Shown here: positions 5,051 to 48,828 of the stretch, piece after piece
Layout: every line of letters starts with the position of its first letter
Position numbering within the stretch: position 1 is the stretch's first letter
NCBI GenBank assembly: GCA_019054805.1
Contig: JAHQIY010000021.1
Span: 124,001-188,000, forward strand
DNA: 64,000 bases
Source: Brachionus manjavacas
Taxonomy: Eukaryota; Rotifera; Eurotatoria; Ploima; Brachionidae
Reading direction: 5' to 3'
Notes under the pieces: model-generated
Database searches by the model: none
What the model was told of the DNA's origin: nothing
Seen by the model: the letters and a program-made list of their open reading frames with translations, nothing else
Position numbers and translations under genes: made by a program

Positions 5051-5797
5051 ATGCAAAATAAAACTATTTGGCTTATAGGTGCAAGCTTTGGTATTGGCGA
5101 AACTTTGTGCCAAAAATTAGCAACCAACAACACTTTAATACTAAGTGCACGTAGTGCTAGTAAGTTAACCACTTTGCAACAAAGCCTGCCTAATGCAAAT
5201 AAACATACGGTTTTACCATTAGATGTTACAAACTCACAAAGTATGCAAAACAGCTTTAACGTTTTGCAAAACACTAACATAGATTGCATAATTTACCTAA
5301 GTGGCGTTTACGAAACCGGTAATTTAGTAAATGTAGATATGCAAACTGGTATTAATATTTTAAATACTAACCTAATAGGTGCCTTGCATTTAGTAAATTT
5401 ATTTACGCCTAAACTTATGCAACAAAATAACAATCCTAGTATTGTATTAACGGCTTCGGCCGCTGCTTATGTTGGCTTGCCTAATTCTGGCTTTTATGGT
5501 GTATCTAAAGCAGGTGTATTACAAGCCGCCGAACAATTAAAGCTAGATTTAGCCCCGTTTAATATTAAAGTGCAGGTTATAAATCCTGGTTTTGTTAAAA
5601 CCAGACTAACCGACAAAAATAACTTTAATATGCCCTTTTTAACCGATACCAACAGCATGGCTAATTACATTGTAAAGCAACTATCTACCAATGTATTTGA
5701 TATTAACTACCCAAAACAACTTACTTTAATGCTAAAATTTATACGTATTTTGCCTTATAAATGGCAATTTGCCCTATTAAAAAAACTTATTAAATAA
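5051..5797 (+). CDS. short-chain dehydrogenase/reductase (SDR)
   Basis: 248-residue Rossmann-fold oxidoreductase of the classical SDR group. The nucleotide-binding start IGASFGIGETLC corresponds to TGxxxGIG. The catalytic Ser lies in the VLTASAAAY region and Tyr-Lys in YGVSKAG. The substrate is unknown. SDR genes are common companions of the FAD oxidoreductase/DUF1365/CFA cluster, so a part in lipid modification is plausible. It is preceded by AAAGG and followed 15 bases later by a transporter gene on the same strand. Confidence 0.75.
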   Translation: MQNKTIWLIGASFGIGETLCQKLATNNTLILSARSASKLTTLQQSLPNANKHTVLPLDVTNSQSMQNSFNVLQNTNIDCIIYLSGVYETGNLVNVDMQTGINILNTNLIGALHLVNLFTPKLMQQNNNPSIVLTASAAAYVGLPNSGFYGVSKAGVLQAAEQLKLDLAPFNIKVQVINPGFVKTRLTDKNNFNMPFLTDTNSMANYIVKQLSTNVFDINYPKQLTLMLKFIRILPYKWQFALLKKLIK

Positions 5798-37724: not shown

Positions 37725-39212
37725 CTATAGCCAACCTTTACTGCGTTCTACGGCTTTGTGCCAATTGCCTAGTAGATCTGCACGTTGGTTGCTGGTAATT
37801 GTGGGTTCAAACACTTTGTCTACTTTCCATTTAGAAGCTATTTCATCTGCAGATTGCCAAAAGCCAACAAACAAGCCCGCTAAATAAGCTACGCCTAGTG
37901 CGGTGGTTTCGGTTACTACTGGCCTAATAACTTGTGCGTTGTTAATATCTGCCTGAAACTGCATTAAAGTGTTGTTGGCACTGGCGCCGCCATCTACCCT
38001 AATTTGCGTTATGGTAGTGTTAGAAACCTGTTGCATGGTGTTTAAAACATCGTAACTTTGAAAAGCAATGCTTTCTAAAGCGGCTCTGGCAATATGGCCT
38101 TTGGTAGAGCCTCTGGTTAAACCAATTATAGTACCACTGGCGTAAGAATCCCAATACGGAACCCCAAGCCCAACAAATGCAGGCACAAAATATACGCCCC
38201 CGTTGTTTGGTTGGGTTAGGGCTAAGGCCTCTACATCGCTACTATTATTTATAATACCTAGGCCGTCTCTTAGCCATTGCACTACAGACCCCCCAACAAA
38301 CACACTGCCTTCTAGTGCATAGGTTACGTGGTCTTTTCTGCCCCAAGCAATGGTGGTTAAAATTTTATCTTCTTTTATTAAAGGGTTTTCTCTGCCAATA
38401 TTTAGCAAAGTAAAGCAACCGGTGCCGTATGTATTTTTTGCCATACCTGGTTTTAAACAGGCTTGGCCAAAGGTGGCGGCTTGTTGATCTCCTGCTACGC
38501 CACAAATTTTAATTTTACCTGGTAAAATATCTTCGTTAACGGTGCCGTAATCATCAGAACTTTTGTAAACTTTAGGTAACATATTGTGCGGAATATTAAA
38601 TAGGTTTAGCAGTTCGGTATCCCACTGTTTAGTGGTTATGTTGTAAAGCATGGTACGGCTGGCGTTAGAATAATCGGTGGCGTGTACGTTGCCCCCTGTT
38701 AGTTTCCATACTAGCCAAGTGTCTATAGTGCCAAATAGTAGATTACCTTTTTCGGCTTCTGCTCTGGCGTTTTCTACGTTGTCTAAAATCCATTTTACTT
38801 TTGTGGCACTAAAGTAAGAGTCTACCACTAAGCCAGTTTTATTTTTTATAAGTTTATCTGTACCGTTTTGTGTAAGTTGTTTGCAGTAGTCTGCGGTTCT
38901 TCTGTCTTGCCAAACAATTGCGTTGTAAATAGGCAACCCAGTTTGCTTGTGCCACACTACTGTGGTTTCGCGCTGGTTGGTAATGCCTAGGGCTGCAATT
39001 TGTTTACCTAGGTTGCCGTGTTTTGCTAGGGTTTCGTTAATAATACCCATAACGCCTGCCCAAATTTCTAGGGCGTTGTGTTCTACCCAACCGTTTTTAG
39101 GAAAAATTTGCGTAAATTCTTTTTGTGCCATGCTAACAATATTAACATCTTTATCAAACAAAATTGCTCTGGAGCTTGTGGTTCCTTGGTCTATAGATAA
39201 AACGTATTTCAT
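37725..39212 (-). CDS. glpK: glycerol kinase
   Basis: 495-residue FGGY-family kinase forming glycerol 3-phosphate. N-terminal IDQGTTSSRAILFD, NQRETTVVW, WQDRRTADYC, and the second FGGY signature near GSTKGHIARAALESIAFQSYDVL; DGGASANNTLMQFQAD for nucleotide binding. Driven by a textbook promoter at 39315-39343 with a leader of about 95 bases. No glpF or glpR is in view. Confidence 0.95.
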   Translation of the reverse strand: MKYVLSIDQGTTSSRAILFDKDVNIVSMAQKEFTQIFPKNGWVEHNALEIWAGVMGIINETLAKHGNLGKQIAALGITNQRETTVVWHKQTGLPIYNAIVWQDRRTADYCKQLTQNGTDKLIKNKTGLVVDSYFSATKVKWILDNVENARAEAEKGNLLFGTIDTWLVWKLTGGNVHATDYSNASRTMLYNITTKQWDTELLNLFNIPHNMLPKVYKSSDDYGTVNEDILPGKIKICGVAGDQQAATFGQACLKPGMAKNTYGTGCFTLLNIGRENPLIKEDKILTTIAWGRKDHVTYALEGSVFVGGSVVQWLRDGLGIINNSSDVEALALTQPNNGGVYFVPAFVGLGVPYWDSYASGTIIGLTRGSTKGHIARAALESIAFQSYDVLNTMQQVSNTTITQIRVDGGASANNTLMQFQADINNAQVIRPVVTETTALGVAYLAGLFVGFWQSADEIASKWKVDKVFEPTITSNQRADLLGNWHKAVERSKGWL

Positions 39213-39314
39213 GCTTAATTACCTTTATGTAGTTACAAATATTATTTAGCGCCGGCTAGTTAGATATTTTAAGTTTATTTATTACTTAAACGTGTATATA
39301 CGGCAGTTATTTGT

Positions 39315-39343
39315 ATTATAACTTTTTGTTTTGTTTGTGTCAA
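39315..39343 (-). promoter_or_regulatory. glpK promoter, perfect consensus
   Basis: Minus strand TTGACA, 17-base spacer, TATAAT: both hexamers and the spacing equal the sigma-70 consensus. Start of transcription near 39308. It backs directly onto the repeat array at 39422. Confidence 0.8.
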
Positions 39344-39421
39344 GTATATACGCTTAATGTGTTGTTGTTTGTTGTGTTTTGTGGTGGGTGTAGTGGCTGT
39401 GGTTTTACTATACCAATAGTG

Positions 39422-39523
39422 GGTAAAGCATAGGTAGTTTTGTACGTATGCTACACCCTACTACTGCTAAAAATAAAAAAATAATAAGGTAAAGCATAGG
39501 TAGTTTTGTACGTATGCTACACC
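39422..39523. CRISPR. minimal CRISPR-like array: two 36-nt repeats, one 30-nt spacer
   Basis: Two copies at 39422-39457 and 39488-39523 are identical; identity extends 3 bases further, 39 in all. The 36-nt core is symmetric end to end: GGT...ACC outer pairs, a 2-base mismatch, AGCATA with TATGCT, GTA with TAC, and a GTTTTG loop, giving 12 base pairs. The spacing is 66 bases, so the spacer at 39458-39487 is exactly 30 nt and AT-rich. Self-complementary 36-nt repeats with a TTTTG loop and 30-nt spacers are the pattern of type VI-B arrays. The array ends 118 bases before a two-HEPN gene on the plus strand. A pair of intergenic hairpin repeats unrelated to CRISPR is the alternative. Confidence 0.7.
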
Positions 39524-39582
39524 CTATACCTTTAAATATACTATAAAATCTAAAAAAATTCAACTTTTATTATAAAAAAAAT

Positions 39583-39592
39583 GTGCTAAAAT
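39583..39592 (+). promoter_or_regulatory. extended -10 promoter of the Cas13-like gene
   Basis: GTGCTAAAAT: TGC followed by TAAAAT, one mismatch from consensus. Predicted start near 39599, leader about 43 bases, AAAGG ribosome site before ATG 39642. Indicates that the effector can be made independently of the array. Confidence 0.5.
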
Positions 39593-39641
39593 GTATTTAT
39601 ATAGGCACAAAAATAGCATTTTTTAATAAAGGTAATAAAAC

Positions 39642-41582
39642 ATGGGCAAAAAAAATAATACAAATAATAATAAAAAAATTACTTCTTTGTGCAACTTTTT
39701 TAAAGAAATTGAACAACATAACAGTAATTATAAATATTTGTTGGCTCCTATTTTAACCTATTATTTTGAACATAACAAAAAAAATAAAATAGATAATACA
39801 ACGCGCAACCATTACAGCCACTATTACAGAAAGGATTCTGTAGCAAGAAACAGTGTAATAGAGATTTTAAATAATTTAAGCATAAACCCTATTCCGCAAA
39901 TGCTTAATGTTACTTTAAGCAAAATTATTAAAGAATACGACGGGAGAGTAAAAGAAACAAGCAAAGGTTCTTTTGTTAATGTATACAGCTTAATAGATAC
40001 ACTGAAGGCTAACCAAGAAAATACAGAACAGTTAGTTATTAAATTTAATAACAATAAACTAATGTCTATAGTTATTCCTAAAGAATACATAAAATATTTT
40101 TTTAAATATAACCCTAATACAGACTTAGTAACAAATTATACACCTATTTTTAAACTTAAAAACGACTTGGAGAAAGATGAAAAAATACCTAAGCAGATAA
40201 CAATTGGTAAATCTTTTTTTAAAGATAAAATAATATCTGTTAATACTGCGTTGAAACAAAACCAAGAAATTGAAATATTTTTCACTAAACTTAAATTAGG
40301 GGTGCAACTACTAGAATTTAAAGTTACAATTAACAATCCACAAAAGGCAATAACAGAAATAAAGAAAGAAATAGAGTCCGCTAGGAATAATAATCTAAAG
40401 GATATAATCGATCATGTAAAAGAAGAAAAAAACAATATAAACATTAAGTTTAAAGATTATCATAATAAAATTGGTGTAAAAGGAGCAGAAAAAAATCAAA
40501 TATGTATTAGCAATAAAAAAATTGATGATAAAAACATTGATAATAATAATATTAGTTTAGAAAGAATTATTTTAGCAAGTTTTATAAACGACAAAATAAA
40601 AATTAATTACCCAAATAAAGAAATATTAATAAAATGGATTAAAGCAAATAAAAAACAACTAGAGCCCTTGTTAAAATTTGCTAAAGATACTGGTTATGGT
40701 AGCATTTTAGGTACAGCTATAGATGTATTTGAAAATACTTTAAAAGAGTATTACTATAAAGATAAAAATAAAAATAACGAGATAGTTAAAGCTAATTTGT
40801 TAGAATTTGATATAACAGAGCAAGATAAAGAGTACGAAGCAAACACAGATAGAAAAAAAATACTAAAGAGTACCCCAAATAATACAAAACTACAAGAATT
40901 AAATAAATTTATTAATAAACAAATTAGTCGTAATTACGGAGCAGGCAGTAAATTTATAAAACAAATATTATTATTTGAAAAAACTTTTTTTGATGAGAAC
41001 AAAACAAACAAAGACGACTACGTTGCTTTTAAATACAACAGCTTAAAATGCGATAACAACCAAAACCCCATACTGCAAAAATACTTACCTGACGATATAG
41101 ATTTAGAAAAGTTGTTTTTTAGTAATACAGAAGGAGTAAAACAATTACGCAACAGTGCTTTGCATTTTAACCAACCTAAAGCATTATCTAAGTACCCAGA
41201 AGTAGAAGAGTTTGTTGGATTTTACACAAATACAGTAGAAATAGAAACAATAAATAACAAGCTTAATCTAGACAAAAAAAATAAAATAATAGACAATAAA
41301 AACATTAAGCTTTTAAAAGAATTAGCTATTAGTATAAAAGATTATACTAGCAAAGCAAGAAATGAAGAAACACAACAACAAGAACAATTAAAAAAACTAA
41401 ATTTTAACAATAACAACCACAGTAACAGCAATAGCCAAGGCACCACAGGCACGGCAACAAATAACACAAATACCAGTAAAAATAACAATCACCGCCACAA
41501 TAAAAATAAATTTAAAAGCCAAGCTAATAGCCAACCAACAACACACGATTTAATAAACAAGTTTAATAACAATAAACTTTAA
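39642..41582 (+). CDS. compact Cas13-like protein with two HEPN RxxxxH motifs
   Basis: 646 residues. Two HEPN ribonuclease motifs lie near the ends: RNHYSH (R55, N56, H60), inside a TYYFEH...[10 protein letters not shown] context very like the N-terminal HEPN of Cas13b, and RNSALH (R503, N504, H508) near the C-terminus. This terminal pairing is the hallmark of Cas13, the RNA-guided RNA nuclease of type VI CRISPR. The region between is Lys/Asn-rich, mostly helical, with no other known domain. Residues from about 588 form a Gln/Asn/Ser/Thr low-complexity basic tail. Known small Cas13 (e, f, bt) are about 770-800 residues, so this is shorter still. A 36/30 repeat array lies just upstream. No cas1 or cas2 is seen. 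The last 4 bases overlap the convergent lipA stop. The alternative is an Abi-type two-HEPN RNase. Confidence 0.75.
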
Positions 41583-42559
41583 GCGTTTTGTGCTAGGCGG
41601 GCTTCTCTTAGTTTTACAAAGTCGCTATCGGCGTGGTAGCTACTGCGGGTTAATGGGCTAGAAGAAACCAATAAAAAGCCTTTTAATAGTGCAATTTTTT
41701 TAAGTTCATCAAATTCTTGCGGGGTAACGTATCTATCTATAGGTGCATGAAAAGGCGTTGGTTGCAAATACTGCCCTATGGTTAAAAAGTCTACATTGGC
41801 TTCTCTAAGGTCGTTCATTACTTGTAGCACTTCTTCTTTAGTTTCGCCCAAGCCTAGCATTATGCCAGATTTTGTAAACATATTTTTGTTATCTTGTTTT
41901 ACTCTCCATAATAAATTTAGGCTGTTAAAGTATCTGGCTTTGGGTCTTATATCTTGGTATAATCTAGAAACCGTTTCTAAATTATGGTTATAAACATCTG
42001 GGTTAGCCTGCACCACTATTTTGTAAGCATCGCCTTTGTCTCTAAAGTCTGGCGTTAGTACTTCTATTGTTGTATTTGGCGAAATTTGTTTAATTTTATT
42101 AATACAATTGGCAAAATGGCTTGCACCTCCGTCGTCTAGGTCGTCTCTATCTACCGAAGTTATAACCATATGCTTTAAACCTAACGTTTTAGCTAAATTT
42201 GCCACGTTTTCTGGTTCGTTTTCATTTAACGGTTGTGGCCTACCGGTTTTTACGTTGCAAAATCTGCAGGTTCTGGTGCAAATATCGCCCATTATCATAA
42301 CGGTGGCGTGTTTTTTTTGCCAACATTCGCCAATATTTGGGCAGGCGGCTTCTTGGCAAACGGTGTGTAGGTTGTGTTGTTTTACTAGCTGGCTAGTTTG
42401 TAAATAGCCCGCATTGTTAGAATGCCTAACTCTAATCCAATCTGGTAGTTGGCTGTGGGGTCTGGCAATTGCTAAACGCTCTCGCTTAACAGATGCAAGT
42501 TTTTTTTTAACTCTTTGCTCTAAGTTTTGCTTATGCGTAGATTGCTCGGCCACAGACAT
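41579..42559 (-). CDS. lipA: lipoyl synthase
   Basis: 326-residue radical-SAM enzyme inserting two sulfurs into octanoyl groups on lipoyl domains. Both clusters are present: auxiliary Cys68, Cys73, Cys79 ([12 protein letters not shown]) and radical-SAM Cys94, Cys98, Cys101 (CTRTCRFC); the C-terminal RSSYHA supplies the serine ligand. It serves the lipoyl domains of PdhB and PdhC in this window. Overlaps the 3' end of the Cas13-like gene by 4 bases. Confidence 0.95.
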
Positions 42560-42852: not shown

Positions 42853-43779
42853 TTAGTTGGTATATTTTAAAATATTTTCTACAACAATTTCGTAAGACTC
42901 TATAGGTTTTAAAAATTGATTATTTTTTGTGCATAGTTCTATTAAATCGTCTATATCTACTAATGTTATTTTTGTATCGTTGTTGGCTTCTTTTTTGGCT
43001 TGCTGGCTAAAATAAGAAGAAGTAATAAATACGCCAATATCGTAATTTGCTAGGCTACCTCTAAATTCTCTTATAGAGCTAGAAGGTATGGTGTTGCCAC
43101 TGCAATAATGTTTAAACTGAAACCCTACTTTATATTTTAAAAAGTTATCGGCAATTAATGTACCTTCGCCGTCTATACCTTTATCGTTAGTTTTGCCGGT
43201 GTGGTTAATGTTGGTAATGCCTAGGCCTTTTGTAACTTCTAGGCAAAATTTTTCAAACATATCGGGGCTCATTTTTTTTATGTAATTAGTTAAATCTATT
43301 TCCCAACTAGCTTTAGAAGGATCTGTATCGTCTTCTGTTTCTGTTGCATAATGGTTGTTATTTAATTGTGCTTGTTGTGGTGCATTATTTGTGGATATTT
43401 CTTTTTGGTTTTTTTTACTATCTACAATTTTGGCTTGTTGCTTCCAATCTATATTATATATTTCTGCTATAGATAGATTATTGGCAATACTAGTAAGTTT
43501 ATAGGTAGATTTAGCTACTCTGGTTAAATAGCCTAACTTTAAAAGATAATAGACAGTCCAACCCATTCTATGCAAAATTTTTGAATTTCCGCTTGGTATT
43601 CTAAGTTCTAATTCTGCATCGGTAATTTGTAAGTATTGTATGGTTAATAATCTTATTTCGTGAGTTAAAAATGTAAGCTTACCATTACTTGATTTTAATA
43701 CATTAAGCATGTGGGGGCAGTAAAAATAATGTTCGCAGGTAGTAAAATCTTTAATTCCGCTTCTATCAAAATTTTGCAT
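42853..43779 (-). CDS. mrr: Mrr-family restriction endonuclease
   Basis: 308 residues. N-terminal Mrr_N winged-helix domain (about 10-105: LTHEIRLLTIQYLQITDAELELRIPSG... KLGYLTRVAKSTYKLT). A linker rich in Gln, Asn and acidic residues follows, and then the Mrr catalytic domain: MFEKFCLEVTKGLG, GIDGEG with Asp203, and Gln221-Phe-Lys223 as the QxK motif. Family members are type IV enzymes that cut modified (often methylated) DNA. The promoter lies in a 53-base repeat shared with the GmrSD-like gene. Confidence 0.82.
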   Translation of the reverse strand: MQNFDRSGIKDFTTCEHYFYCPHMLNVLKSSNGKLTFLTHEIRLLTIQYLQITDAELELRIPSGNSKILHRMGWTVYYLLKLGYLTRVAKSTYKLTSIANNLSIAEIYNIDWKQQAKIVDSKKNQKEISTNNAPQQAQLNNNHYATETEDDTDPSKASWEIDLTNYIKKMSPDMFEKFCLEVTKGLGITNINHTGKTNDKGIDGEGTLIADNFLKYKVGFQFKHYCSGNTIPSSSIREFRGSLANYDIGVFITSSYFSQQAKKEANNDTKITLVDIDDLIELCTKNNQFLKPIESYEIVVENILKYTN

Positions 43780-43850: not shown

Positions 43851-43903
43851 AAAAAATTTACACAACTAAAAGTTAATTTAGCATACATTATAGTTTAAGT
43901 AAA
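43851..43903 (-). repeat. 53-base promoter repeat, copy 1 (upstream of mrr)
   Basis: Matches 45747-45799 at 49 of 53 positions, same orientation. On the minus strand it holds TTTACT (-35, 43898-43903), a 17-base spacer ending in TGC, and TAAATT (-10, 43875-43880). Confidence 0.75.
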
Positions 43904-43928
43904 GCTATAACTAGGCAAAAGCCTATGT

Positions 43929-43982: not shown

Positions 43983-45709
43983 TTAAGCTTTAGGCACAAA
44001 AAATTTTATAAAATCATTTTTGTATAGCTCGTTCATTTCTTTTATTTCTTTATCTGTCCATTGCTCTTTTTTATTAATGCAAGTCCAGTACGGTAACATT
44101 TTAGAATGTTTAGCATACGCTTCTTTTTTTTGGCTAAAAAGTGAATTTTTTATTCTAGAATTTACACTTCCCGTTAAAAGAAAAAAATTACCCATACAGC
44201 TAAGCAAATACTCTTCACCTTCTGGTAGTTTATCCCAATTTCCCTGAGTTTGAGGGTAGATATGTTCTAAACTAATTTTTTTAGAATTTAATAAATCCCA
44301 ATCTAAATTACTAATACTATCTGAAGCTTCTTCTTGTTGAGCTTTTAAGCTTAACAGCATATATATATTTTTTATTTTATTGTTACTAGCAGACATTTTC
44401 TCATTAAACTTTCTCTCTATATCTTCTTTTACAGTAGAAATATCATAGTTAAAGTATTTATAGATATCATTAATATTGTTGTTGTTTACAGTGTCTAGTA
44501 AATTAATAACTTGTTTGTTAAAGCTTGATGAAGATTTATTATGTAATAAATAATACATTGTTATATTTAATAATGCATTACACAATCCGTTAATATCTTT
44601 TTTTTCTGCCACCGCATATAATACAACAGGGAAAAGAACCAACACACCCCACTTAGAGAAAAGAAATATTAAATTACGCAAGTTATTTGTTTCTGTTTTA
44701 GATAGTTCACAACCCAAGCTTTTGATATCATTAAAGCTAACATTGTTGTTTTCAATAAGAATTCTATACAATTCAGCATATTTTTTTAACCTACTAAATT
44801 CATTTAACTTTTCTTGTTCTTTATCTTTTAATTGATCTATAAAACTATAATAATCATTTTTAAAATCACTTTCTTTATAAGAGTTAATGTCATTTTTATT
44901 TTTATTATTAAAGCAAAATAAAAACTTAAAGTAAGTAGAAAAAAACCTATTTAATTGATCTGCATTCCAAAACTTATCATTTTCACTCCTAAATACATCA
45001 TCCCACTCTTCGGATAGTGCTTCTTTAGTAATGTTTTTTAAAAACTTACTTTTTAAAATATTTTCTATACTTAATGCCACACCTGTAGAGTTCATAACAT
45101 CAAAAATCTCTAACTCATCTTCATTTTCATCTATTACTGTGCGAATAATTTTTATTGTGCTTAAACGGTTAATAAAAGCTTCTAATATTTTTATTGGTTC
45201 GTTTTTATAATCTTTATCAAAGTAATCTTTTATTGTTCCATAATTTGTTATATAAATATTCTCTTCATCTTTTACGCCATTGTCTATATATTGGTAAAAC
45301 TTATTAAGCTTATCGTATTGACTAGAATTATCTTCAAGAATTAATCTTTTTGTTTGATTTTCTTTGAAAGAGTTTAAATAAAGTATTTCTTTTAACGCTA
45401 CATGCCGAGATGAGCAATTTTGTGGTAGATCTTTAGGAAGTAATAAAAGTATGTAATAAGAAATTAACATAATTGTAGTTAATCGTTGCTGACCATCTAT
45501 TACTTCGTAATAATTATCCCTTTTTTTAAAACAATATTACCTACTAAATTTACAGAAGAATACGGATTAAAAAAATTATCTAGTAAGCGGTTAACATTTT
45601 CTTTTGACCATACATACGGACGTTGGTATTCTGGAATAATTAATGCATTAGCCTTGGTAAGCTCATCATTACAAAAAGAATCATTTAAAGTGGTATCTTT
45701 TGCTTCCAT
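43983..45709 (-). pseudogene. GmrSD-like (DUF262/DUF1524) type IV restriction protein, frameshifted
   Basis: I start at ATG 45709, which has an AAGGAGAG ribosome site. The N-terminal DUF262 motif IPEYQRPYVW is followed by VGNIVLKK, after which the frame slips. The + strand T run 45521-45527 (A run on the coding strand) is one short. The next frame resumes with YYEVIDGQQRLTT, the DUF262 nucleotide-binding signature, and runs to a C-terminal DUF1524 HNH nuclease with SLEHIYPQ and MGNFFLLTGSVNSRIKN. Total about 575 residues. Such proteins cut glucosylated or otherwise modified phage DNA. As read, the gene is broken; slippage or a read error could restore it. Confidence 0.8.
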
Positions 45710-45746
45710 TTCACTCTCCTTTTTAAAAATTAAACAAAGTGCATAA

Positions 45747-45799
45747 AAAAAATTTACACAACCAAAAGTTAGTTTAACATACATTGTAGTTTAAGTAAA
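45747..45799 (-). repeat. 53-base promoter repeat, copy 2 (upstream of the GmrSD-like gene)
   Basis: Minus strand TTTACT (45794-45799), 17-base spacer ending in TGT, TAAACT (45771-45776). Four differences from copy 1. Sits 38-90 bases before the chosen start of the GmrSD-like gene. Confidence 0.75.
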
Positions 45800-45976
45800 T
45801 TTAAAAAAGTACAAACAAAGGCAAACATTAACCCCAATGCAACCATTACAAAAACAACCGTAAAGTTAACACAAACATTACAATGGCAACCGAAATACTA
45901 AAGTTAACCGTAACGGCAACCATAAACTCCAACAACACAGCAACGGGCAAGCATAAACGTACACAAAAGGGTTGAC

Positions 45977-47497: not shown

Positions 47498-47641
47498 TTA
47501 AGTATTTAGTTTTAATAAAAACTGTAACTTATCTTTATATTTATCTATTTTATTATTATTAATATATGCTATTTTAATTCTACTTTTTGTGGGGTTTAAT
47601 AGTTCAAATGTAATTTTGCATTTAATCTTTAACCAACCTTT
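47498..47641 (-). pseudogene. possible gene remnant between dcm-type gene and lpd
   Basis: A 47-codon open stretch, overlapping the last codons of the methyltransferase in another frame, with no ATG. It reads like coding sequence (charged and hydrophobic residues well mixed, e.g. CKITFELLNPTKSRIKIAYINN) and might be the 3' tail of a lost partner gene such as a cognate endonuclease. Family not recognised. Confidence 0.25.
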
Positions 47642-48828
47642 TTATTAATCTCGTGCTTAATATTTATAATTCTTTTTACTTCTTGTGCAATTTGCTTAGC
47701 AAAAAATGGCGGAACCGCATTACCTATTTGCCTATACATACTATTAAGGCTACCTGTAAAAATAAAATTATTAGGAAAAGTTTGTAAAATAGCACATTCT
47801 CTAACCGATAGTCTACGCATTTTGTTAACATGAATTTCTGGCGTGGTAGCGGTTATGGTATCGCTTGGTGTGTTCCAATTAGTTATGCGTAACGATTGCT
47901 CAAATGTAAGTTGTTTTAACTCAAGCTCTGTAACCTGTTTATCGTATTTATCATCAAACTGTAAAATTTCTTTTAATCTTAACCAATCTTTAGGGTTAGG
48001 TATAGAGCCAGATTTATTATCTTTTCTAAACCAATGCCCTGCTGTATGCCTATAGCCAAAAATTTTGTCTATTTTAGTTGCAGATAATTTAGCTTTTTTA
48101 CGATACTCATTTAAATAATCGCATATATCTGCTTGTAACGGTGGATTTTTGCGTGCGTAAAAATGCTCTGCAACATTGGTAGAAGCTATATGATTATAAA
48201 TTACTGTATTTTTAGTTTTTATTGGCTCGTTGTTTAATTCAACATCGCTTAAATAACCTATAGCTTCTGCAACAGATATTTTGTTTAAATTTTTATTTAA
48301 ATACAACCCACCAGTATAATTTAATTTATTACCATAAAGTATTATTCTCTCTCTATTTTGCGGAACACCATAGTTAGACATATTATAAAGTTGATAGTTA
48401 ACAAAATAACCAATCTCTTCAAAATCCTTTATAATTTGTTGCATTACAGCACCACCACCCATAGACAACAAACCTTTAACATTTTCTCCTATAAAAAATT
48501 TTGGTTGCTTATCTTTTACTACCCTTAGCAGTTCTTTATATAAAAAATTTCTTTCGTCTTCAATAGCTCTATTTTTATTATTTATAGAAAAGCCTTGGCA
48601 AGGAAATCCACCTAATACTACATCTGGATTATTTGGAATCTCCTTGCTAGAAATTAGCCTTATATCTTTATTAATAATATGGTTACCTATATTTTTTTTA
48701 TAAGTTTCTACTGCATCTTTATTAAAGTCGTTAGCCCATAATATTTTAAAACCTGCTTGTTTAAAACCTAGGTCTAAACCACCTGCACCAGAAAACAAAG
48801 ATATTACAGTTAACCCTTTATTGTTCAT
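47629..48828 (-). CDS. dcm: DNA (cytosine-5) methyltransferase
   Basis: 399-residue C5 methyltransferase. Motif I LFSGAGGLDLGFKQAG near residue 11, motif IV GGFPCQGFS with catalytic Cys77, motif VI GENVKGL with Glu115, QNRERI (motif VIII) and the C-terminal QIGNAVPP (motif X). The target recognition region is about 190-330. The site specificity is unknown. It sits between pdhC and lpd, whose products form one complex, so it is probably an insertion into an ancestral pdh operon. No intact cognate endonuclease is adjacent. Confidence 0.92.
   Translation of the reverse strand: MNNKGLTVISLFSGAGGLDLGFKQAGFKILWANDFNKDAVETYKKNIGNHIINKDIRLISSKEIPNNPDVVLGGFPCQGFSINNKNRAIEDERNFLYKELLRVVKDKQPKFFIGENVKGLLSMGGGAVMQQIIKDFEEIGYFVNYQLYNMSNYGVPQNRERIILYGNKLNYTGGLYLNKNLNKISVAEAIGYLSDVELNNEPIKTKNTVIYNHIASTNVAEHFYARKNPPLQADICDYLNEYRKKAKLSATKIDKIFGYRHTAGHWFRKDNKSGSIPNPKDWLRLKEILQFDDKYDKQVTELELKQLTFEQSLRITNWNTPSDTITATTPEIHVNKMRRLSVRECAILQTFPNNFIFTGSLNSMYRQIGNAVPPFFAKQIAQEVKRIINIKHEINKKVG

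Follow-up and report, generated by a model that had tools for sequence, protein, structure and literature searches.

A candidate compact Cas13-like effector beside a minimal CRISPR-like array in a divergent, apparently host-associated alphaproteobacterium

Compact type VI systems and the candidate effector

The described subtypes of type VI CRISPR-Cas are few and their origin is contested. Cas13an effectors are reported in PMC12165695 as proteins of 429-577 aa with two HEPN sites, a 36-nt repeat and a 30-nt spacer that precedes the repeat, encoded at loci described there as having no cas1/cas2; type II cas1/cas2 genes were present in trans in 4 of 10 Cas13an genomes, and by the same account Cas13an had gone undetected in HMM searches using known Cas13s. 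The description in PMC12709928 gives 424 and 529 aa for the Cas13j proteins, 775 aa for Cas13X.1 and 790 aa for Cas13Y.1, and the 2025 classification, in the account of PMC12669027, has Cas13e of VI-E as its smallest Cas13. We consider that Cas13an is possibly the same group as this VI-E. Repeat and spacer lengths in type VI average 36 and 30 nt, and the RNx3H form makes up about 74% of the RxxxxH motifs among novel Cas13s, as given in PMC9554183. Leader-repeat hairpins are reported for many spacer-repeat type VI systems, whereas ancestral type VI systems are described with no obvious leader-repeat hairpin and with the guide portion of their first-repeat RNA folding into hairpins (as outlined in PMC13187072). 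AbiF has been proposed as the Cas13 ancestor, and the Cas13e crRNA has been described as an antitoxin as well as a guide (both as presented in PMC12737573).

In the window analysed here, a stretch of 64,000 nt, we consider it likely that one locus is a minimal type VI CRISPR-Cas system with a compact, very divergent Cas13-like effector. This is the best reading because a rare motif pair and a CRISPR-shaped repeat pair, of which no other was found in the window, lie side by side, each line of evidence being suggestive when taken singly. No earlier description of the locus was found among the open-licence papers listed on compact and ancestral Cas13 (Cas13an included), on Cas13 in endosymbionts and alphaproteobacteria, and on AbiF.

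The candidate effector is encoded by an ORF of 646 aa at 39642-41582 on the + strand, which starts with ATG and is the sole copy in the assembly. The first-pass annotation had placed RNHYSH at residues 55-60 and RNSALH at residues 503-508 of this ORF, and both the ORF and the motifs were exact, the codons of R55-N-H-Y-S-H60 being located at 39804-39821 (+) and those of R503-N-S-A-L-H508 at 41148-41165 (+). These are the only two Rx4H motifs of the protein (R55/H60 and R503/H508), both are of the RNx3H form, and they stand at opposite ends of one chain, as in type VI effectors. Among 20,000 shuffled versions of the protein, at least two Rx4H were found in 1.3%, at least two RNx3H in 0.035%, and two RNx3H spaced by at least 400 residues in 0.02%. 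Arg and His each make up 1.7% of the residues and Lys and Asn 14.9% each, in agreement with the Lys/Asn richness that had been noted. The low-complexity tail that had also been noted is present and Asn-rich; it is an Asn/Gln/Lys-rich segment of approximately residues 571-646 (41352-41579, +; boundary set by eye), without which the protein would measure about 570 aa. The GC content of the gene is 25.3%.

With regard to size, the protein had been called unusually small, which holds in relation to Cas13e/f/bt but not in relation to Cas13an (429-577 aa) and Cas13j (424 and 529 aa), both of which are smaller. Its 646 aa therefore fill a gap between the 424-577 aa of Cas13an and Cas13j and the 775-790 aa of Cas13X/Y without setting a record. 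The likeness to Cas13an, which was compared by description only and differs in its size range, lies in a small single effector with two HEPN sites and the 36/30 format of repeat and spacer; Cas13j, likewise compared by description only, is a compact Cas13 too.

The sequence around the N-terminal motif reads RNHYSHYYR, and an RNxYSHY/RNxFSHY context is common to this protein, Cas13b and Cas13bt/X/Y. The Cas13b HEPN1 context proposed in the first-pass annotation was found in PbuCas13b (PDB 6dtd; LRNYYSHYKY) and in Cas13bt3 (LRNYFSHYRH, in a sequence that matches PDB 7vti over all 775 residues), but it does not extend to PspCas13b, which reads RDLTNH there in the sequence used.

Searches for relatives were carried out at the protein, genome, profile and structure levels. 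No protein homologs were observed for the whole protein, for residues 330-560 or for residues 14-245 (7993, 3703 and 2270 candidates scored, respectively), and none in genome contigs or plasmids. The sole viral match (29%) was to a phage-like gene that has T and Y at the positions of R503 and H508, and it was attributed to chance. In the order to which the Megaira genome belongs, 3 of 343 genomes had matches at E ≤1 (best 0.0127), and in the class 8 of 385 had weak matches (best 0.0138); the loci of three of these 11 genomes were inspected, one of which had three internal stops and overlay other genes including metK, and all three were judged to be chance, the other eight being viewed at table level.

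No PADLOC or NCBIfam model matched the whole protein, no Pfam match attained its cut-off, and no Cas13 or HEPN model matched pieces of it. The top Pfam match of the whole protein, ThiS (E 0.0015), scored 19.5 bits, short of its 22.5 cut-off, lies distant from the motifs and was rejected. The PADLOC Cas13b models detect Cas13bt3 and are silent on the 646-aa protein, and the Cas13b model PDLC02153 was found in 0 of 398 Pseudomonadota genomes. In PDB sequence searches with the whole protein and two pieces, no Cas13 or HEPN chain was returned, and a profile comparison with two Cas13b-family proteins gave 14.9, under the 16.8 of a control protein. The AlphaFold single-sequence models, with pLDDT 33.8 (whole) and 36.9 (residues 396-575), were too poor to show any fold. 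The failure to match known Cas13 profiles is weak counter-evidence, since Cas13an was likewise missed by Cas13 HMMs.

The two-repeat array and its leader

Upstream of the candidate effector, a CRISPR-like array was found at 39422-39523, which had gone without mention in the first-pass annotation. It consists of two identical 36-nt direct repeats, repeat 1 at 39422-39457 and repeat 2 at 39488-39523, on either side of an AT-rich 30-nt spacer (39458-39487, GC 17%), all given on the + strand, and the end of repeat 2 is 118 nt from the effector ATG. Repeats of 36 nt and spacers of about 30 nt beside an effector are the dimensions of a type VI array, here in the minimal form of two repeats and one spacer; since the identity of the repeats continues for 3 nt past the 36, to 39460 and 39526, a 39/27 reading of repeat and spacer is possible. 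The new compact type VI branch that had been proposed from the protein is independently supported by this adjacent 36/30 array.

When an exact 14-nt seed was used, this array was the sole direct-repeat family found in the window with repeats of at least 25 nt and copies no more than 120 nt apart. With up to 3 mismatches allowed, only these two copies of the repeat were found across the 114-Mb assembly, the next-best match elsewhere in the window has 21/36 identities, and no further repeats were observed at the four adjacent in-register positions (10-13/36 identities). In its 39-nt form, the repeat is predicted to fold into a base-closed hairpin on either strand, with z -3.2 on the + strand (equalled by 0 of 200 shuffles) and z -2.9 on the - strand (equalled by 3 of 200). 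At up to 3 mismatches, the spacer had no match in the assembly other than itself, and its first 25 bases had none in the viral contigs. Against phages, 25 records were obtained at chance level, with no convincing target; 24 of them had at least 99% identity, with 16-17 bases covered among the matches listed (19 of the 24), and the remaining record had 27 bases at 85%.

For comparison, six VI-B repeats and seven control repeats (one VI-A, two VI-D, three type II and the type II repeat of the same chromosome) were used. Of the 14 columns invariant in the six VI-B repeats, the repeat keeps 11 on the + strand and 5 on the - strand, and the controls keep 4-10 on either strand; together with the 36-nt length, the base-closed hairpin and a UUUUG loop, these 11 columns are shared with the repeats of Cas13b and Cas13bt/X/Y. 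The mean identity to the VI-B repeats is 16.5/36, compared with 21.8-25.4/36 for these repeats among themselves and 11.2-17.7 for the controls over both strands. This mean identity appeared significant against shuffles (0.0005) but was not relied on, since other CRISPR repeats reach up to 17.7. Judged by its sequence, the repeat has VI-B architecture and lies outside the VI-B group proper.

A solitary VI-B3-type (Cas13bt/X-like) repeat was also observed in the viral contig IMGVR_UViG_3300031280_000461, at 5571-5606 (-) of a 6-kb locus whose direct repeats include no further copy of it; one possible role is that of an RNA-based anti-CRISPR imitating the crRNA of a Cas13. This VI-B3-like repeat is the only one of the VI-B-kind comparison repeats that was traced in sequence data.

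The + strand of the array is only inferred, from the VI-B-invariant columns (11 versus 5 of 14), because the promoter scan detected nothing promoter-like ahead of the array on the + strand and did give a weak 9/12 site on the - strand that would read through the array in the opposite direction; the scan returned 4 sites in total against 3.9 expected. Between the array and glpK, a promoter-like site with 12/12 sigma-70 consensus positions was observed at 39343-39315 (-), aimed at glpK.

Directly upstream of repeat 1, RNA folding predicts a leader hairpin of 10 pairs with an 8-nt loop at 39387-39414 (+), overlapping 39392-39421, the 30-nt position that would serve the first repeat as guide. The hairpin is modest when compared with shuffles, of which 16 of 200 (46 nt) and 10 of 200 (37 nt) fold equally well, and the 30-nt guide position by itself folds differently, being equalled by 36 of 200 shuffles. 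A leader-repeat hairpin was looked for and found to be absent: pairing between the leader and repeat 1 is scarcely present (fraction 0.026, reached by 169 of 300 shuffled leaders), and the best fold pairs the last four repeat bases with the leader only if the sequence ends at 39457. The apparent absence of a leader-repeat hairpin and the invisibility to Cas13 HMMs are shared with Cas13an and ancestral type VI systems, and the guide-side hairpin, predicted here at the modest level given above, may be a further likeness to the ancestral systems. The locus departs from VI-B in its lack of leader-repeat pairing and in the lack of a PADLOC Cas13b match for the protein. For an origin near the derivation of Cas13 from Abi-type nucleases, as had been suggested, the sole hints are features common to ancestral type VI systems.

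A HEPN motif beside a structured RNA is also shared with AbiF/AbiFr. Differences from AbiF/AbiFr are the two HEPN motifs per chain, the lack of an Abi_2 Pfam match and the lack of an RF03085 RNA, which was absent from the 3 Rfam matches obtained at E ≤10 in 39000-42000; the AbiF-type pairing of an RF03085-like RNA with a single-HEPN protein was thus not found here. A match of mir-379 (Rfam) over repeat 1, with E 0.6 and far under the cut-off, was attributed to chance.

Chromosomal context and adaptation genes in trans

The window is located on contig C21 (1,221,242 bases) of a 61-contig, 114-Mb assembly, for which no relatives were observed among the bacterial and archaeal genomes compared. 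C21 resembles a bacterial chromosome co-sequenced with a eukaryote, and since it is a chromosome-sized bacterial contig within a 114-Mb assembly, it probably derives from a symbiont or contaminant of that eukaryote. In a LipA tree of 81 rows, C21 was placed on a long branch among Alphaproteobacteria with a top identity of 65%, and the bacterium is apparently a very divergent, host-associated alphaproteobacterium.

No cas1/cas2 was observed among the window ORFs neighbouring the effector. The only Cas1 match in the assembly is about 1 Mb from the mini-array, inside a type II CRISPR locus with cas9, cas1, cas2 and an array (C21:1158001-1178000), where the part of cas1 that was compared fits the type II model best. 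The absence of local cas1/cas2 together with type II cas1/cas2 in trans is shared with some Cas13an genomes. The cas9 of this locus consists of two overlapping ORFs that match the 1070-position Cas9 model at 2-375 and 368-1070, reflecting a frameshift, a split gene or an assembly error. The type II array comprises 53 exact repeats, and of its 52 spacers (30-31 nt) only 26 are different, repeated in blocks; its period of 66 nt equals that of the mini-array.

Eight nearby genes were compared for GC content, which was 36.5-41.8% in five of them and 30.5%, 25.3% and 30.1% in the other three, the latter matching Mrr-type, GmrSD-type and C5-methylase Pfam models. Given the low GC content and the restriction-type genes nearby, the effector may plausibly belong to a defence cluster gained by horizontal transfer. 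The Mrr-type endonuclease gene (42853-43779) adjoins the GmrSD-type restriction gene, which is present as two ORFs (43983-45470 and 45500-45784, -), and the C5-methylase gene (47629-48828) lies nearby. Two 60-nt direct repeats with 88% identity, about 1.9 kb apart, were observed in the same region, one upstream of the Mrr-type gene (43851-43910) and the other covering the region where the GmrSD-type gene starts (45747-45806).

Alternative explanations and predicted working of the locus

Three other explanations of the locus were weighed. The protein might be a HEPN RNase restrained by a repeated structured RNA, in the manner of a type III toxin-antitoxin system (the AbiF/AbiFr logic) or of an intermediate toward Cas13, with the two repeats as antitoxin and a spacer that guides nothing. 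The proposed AbiF ancestry of Cas13 and the double role described for the Cas13e crRNA (as presented in PMC12737573) are consistent with this, as are an array of just two repeats and a single AT-rich spacer without a target, but two HEPN motifs per chain, the 36/30 type VI dimensions, the 66-nt period common to the type II array of the chromosome and the lack of RF03085 among the Rfam matches argue against it, and we regard it as improbable. Pure coincidence would require an orphan Lys/Asn-rich protein with chance motifs and unrelated duplicated regulatory repeats between divergent genes. Such an account would agree with the lack of a homolog or profile match and with the glpK promoter-like site in the same intergenic region; it is nevertheless very unlikely, as the motif pair and the repeat pair of CRISPR dimensions are jointly rare and stand side by side.

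A type VI remnant that is decaying or has become fixed, with an intact effector and a one-spacer array that no longer adapts or is now regulatory, overlaps with the preferred explanation in that the protein would still be a Cas13-like effector. The single spacer points in this direction, as do the two-ORF states of the in-trans cas9 and of the nearby GmrSD-type gene, while the identical repeats and the intact effector ORF point away from it, and a non-working remnant, taken apart, is assigned hardly any probability. The minimal type VI system thus remains the preferred reading, although we are less sure that it is adaptive and active at present. Within this reading, the effector may be a long Cas13an, a reduced relative of Cas13b or a subtype of its own. 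We only tentatively suggest a new type VI subtype, a deep branch between Cas13an/Cas13e and Cas13b that has an array of one spacer and borrows its adaptation module from type II; the possible basis for this is that the HEPN1 motif and the repeat architecture are Cas13b-like, while the size and the leader are nearer the ancestral kind.

As a type VI system, the locus would be ordered as a leader, repeat-spacer-repeat and one compact Cas13-like effector. The array would be transcribed and its folded 36-nt repeat bound as crRNA by the 646-aa protein, with the spacer presumably preceding its repeat on the 5' side, the order found in Cas13b and Cas13an. The spacer would guide the protein to matching invader RNA, and target pairing may unite R55/H60 and R503/H508, within putative HEPN folds, as one RNase site that would cleave the target and other RNAs. 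Spacer acquisition would have to rely on Cas1-Cas2 of the distant type II locus, whose array also has the 66-nt period.

If this reading is true, the effector bridges the gap between the groups of 424-577 aa and of about 775 aa, and Cas13s still escape sequence searches, one having been exposed here by a motif pair and a mini-array. A very divergent alphaproteobacterium, apparently host-associated, would be added to the carriers of type VI immunity. If, in addition, the locus is such a new subtype and the apo-protein should be toxic and restrained by its crRNA, it would represent a present-day intermediate linking toxin-antitoxin and CRISPR systems in an apparently host-associated bacterium.
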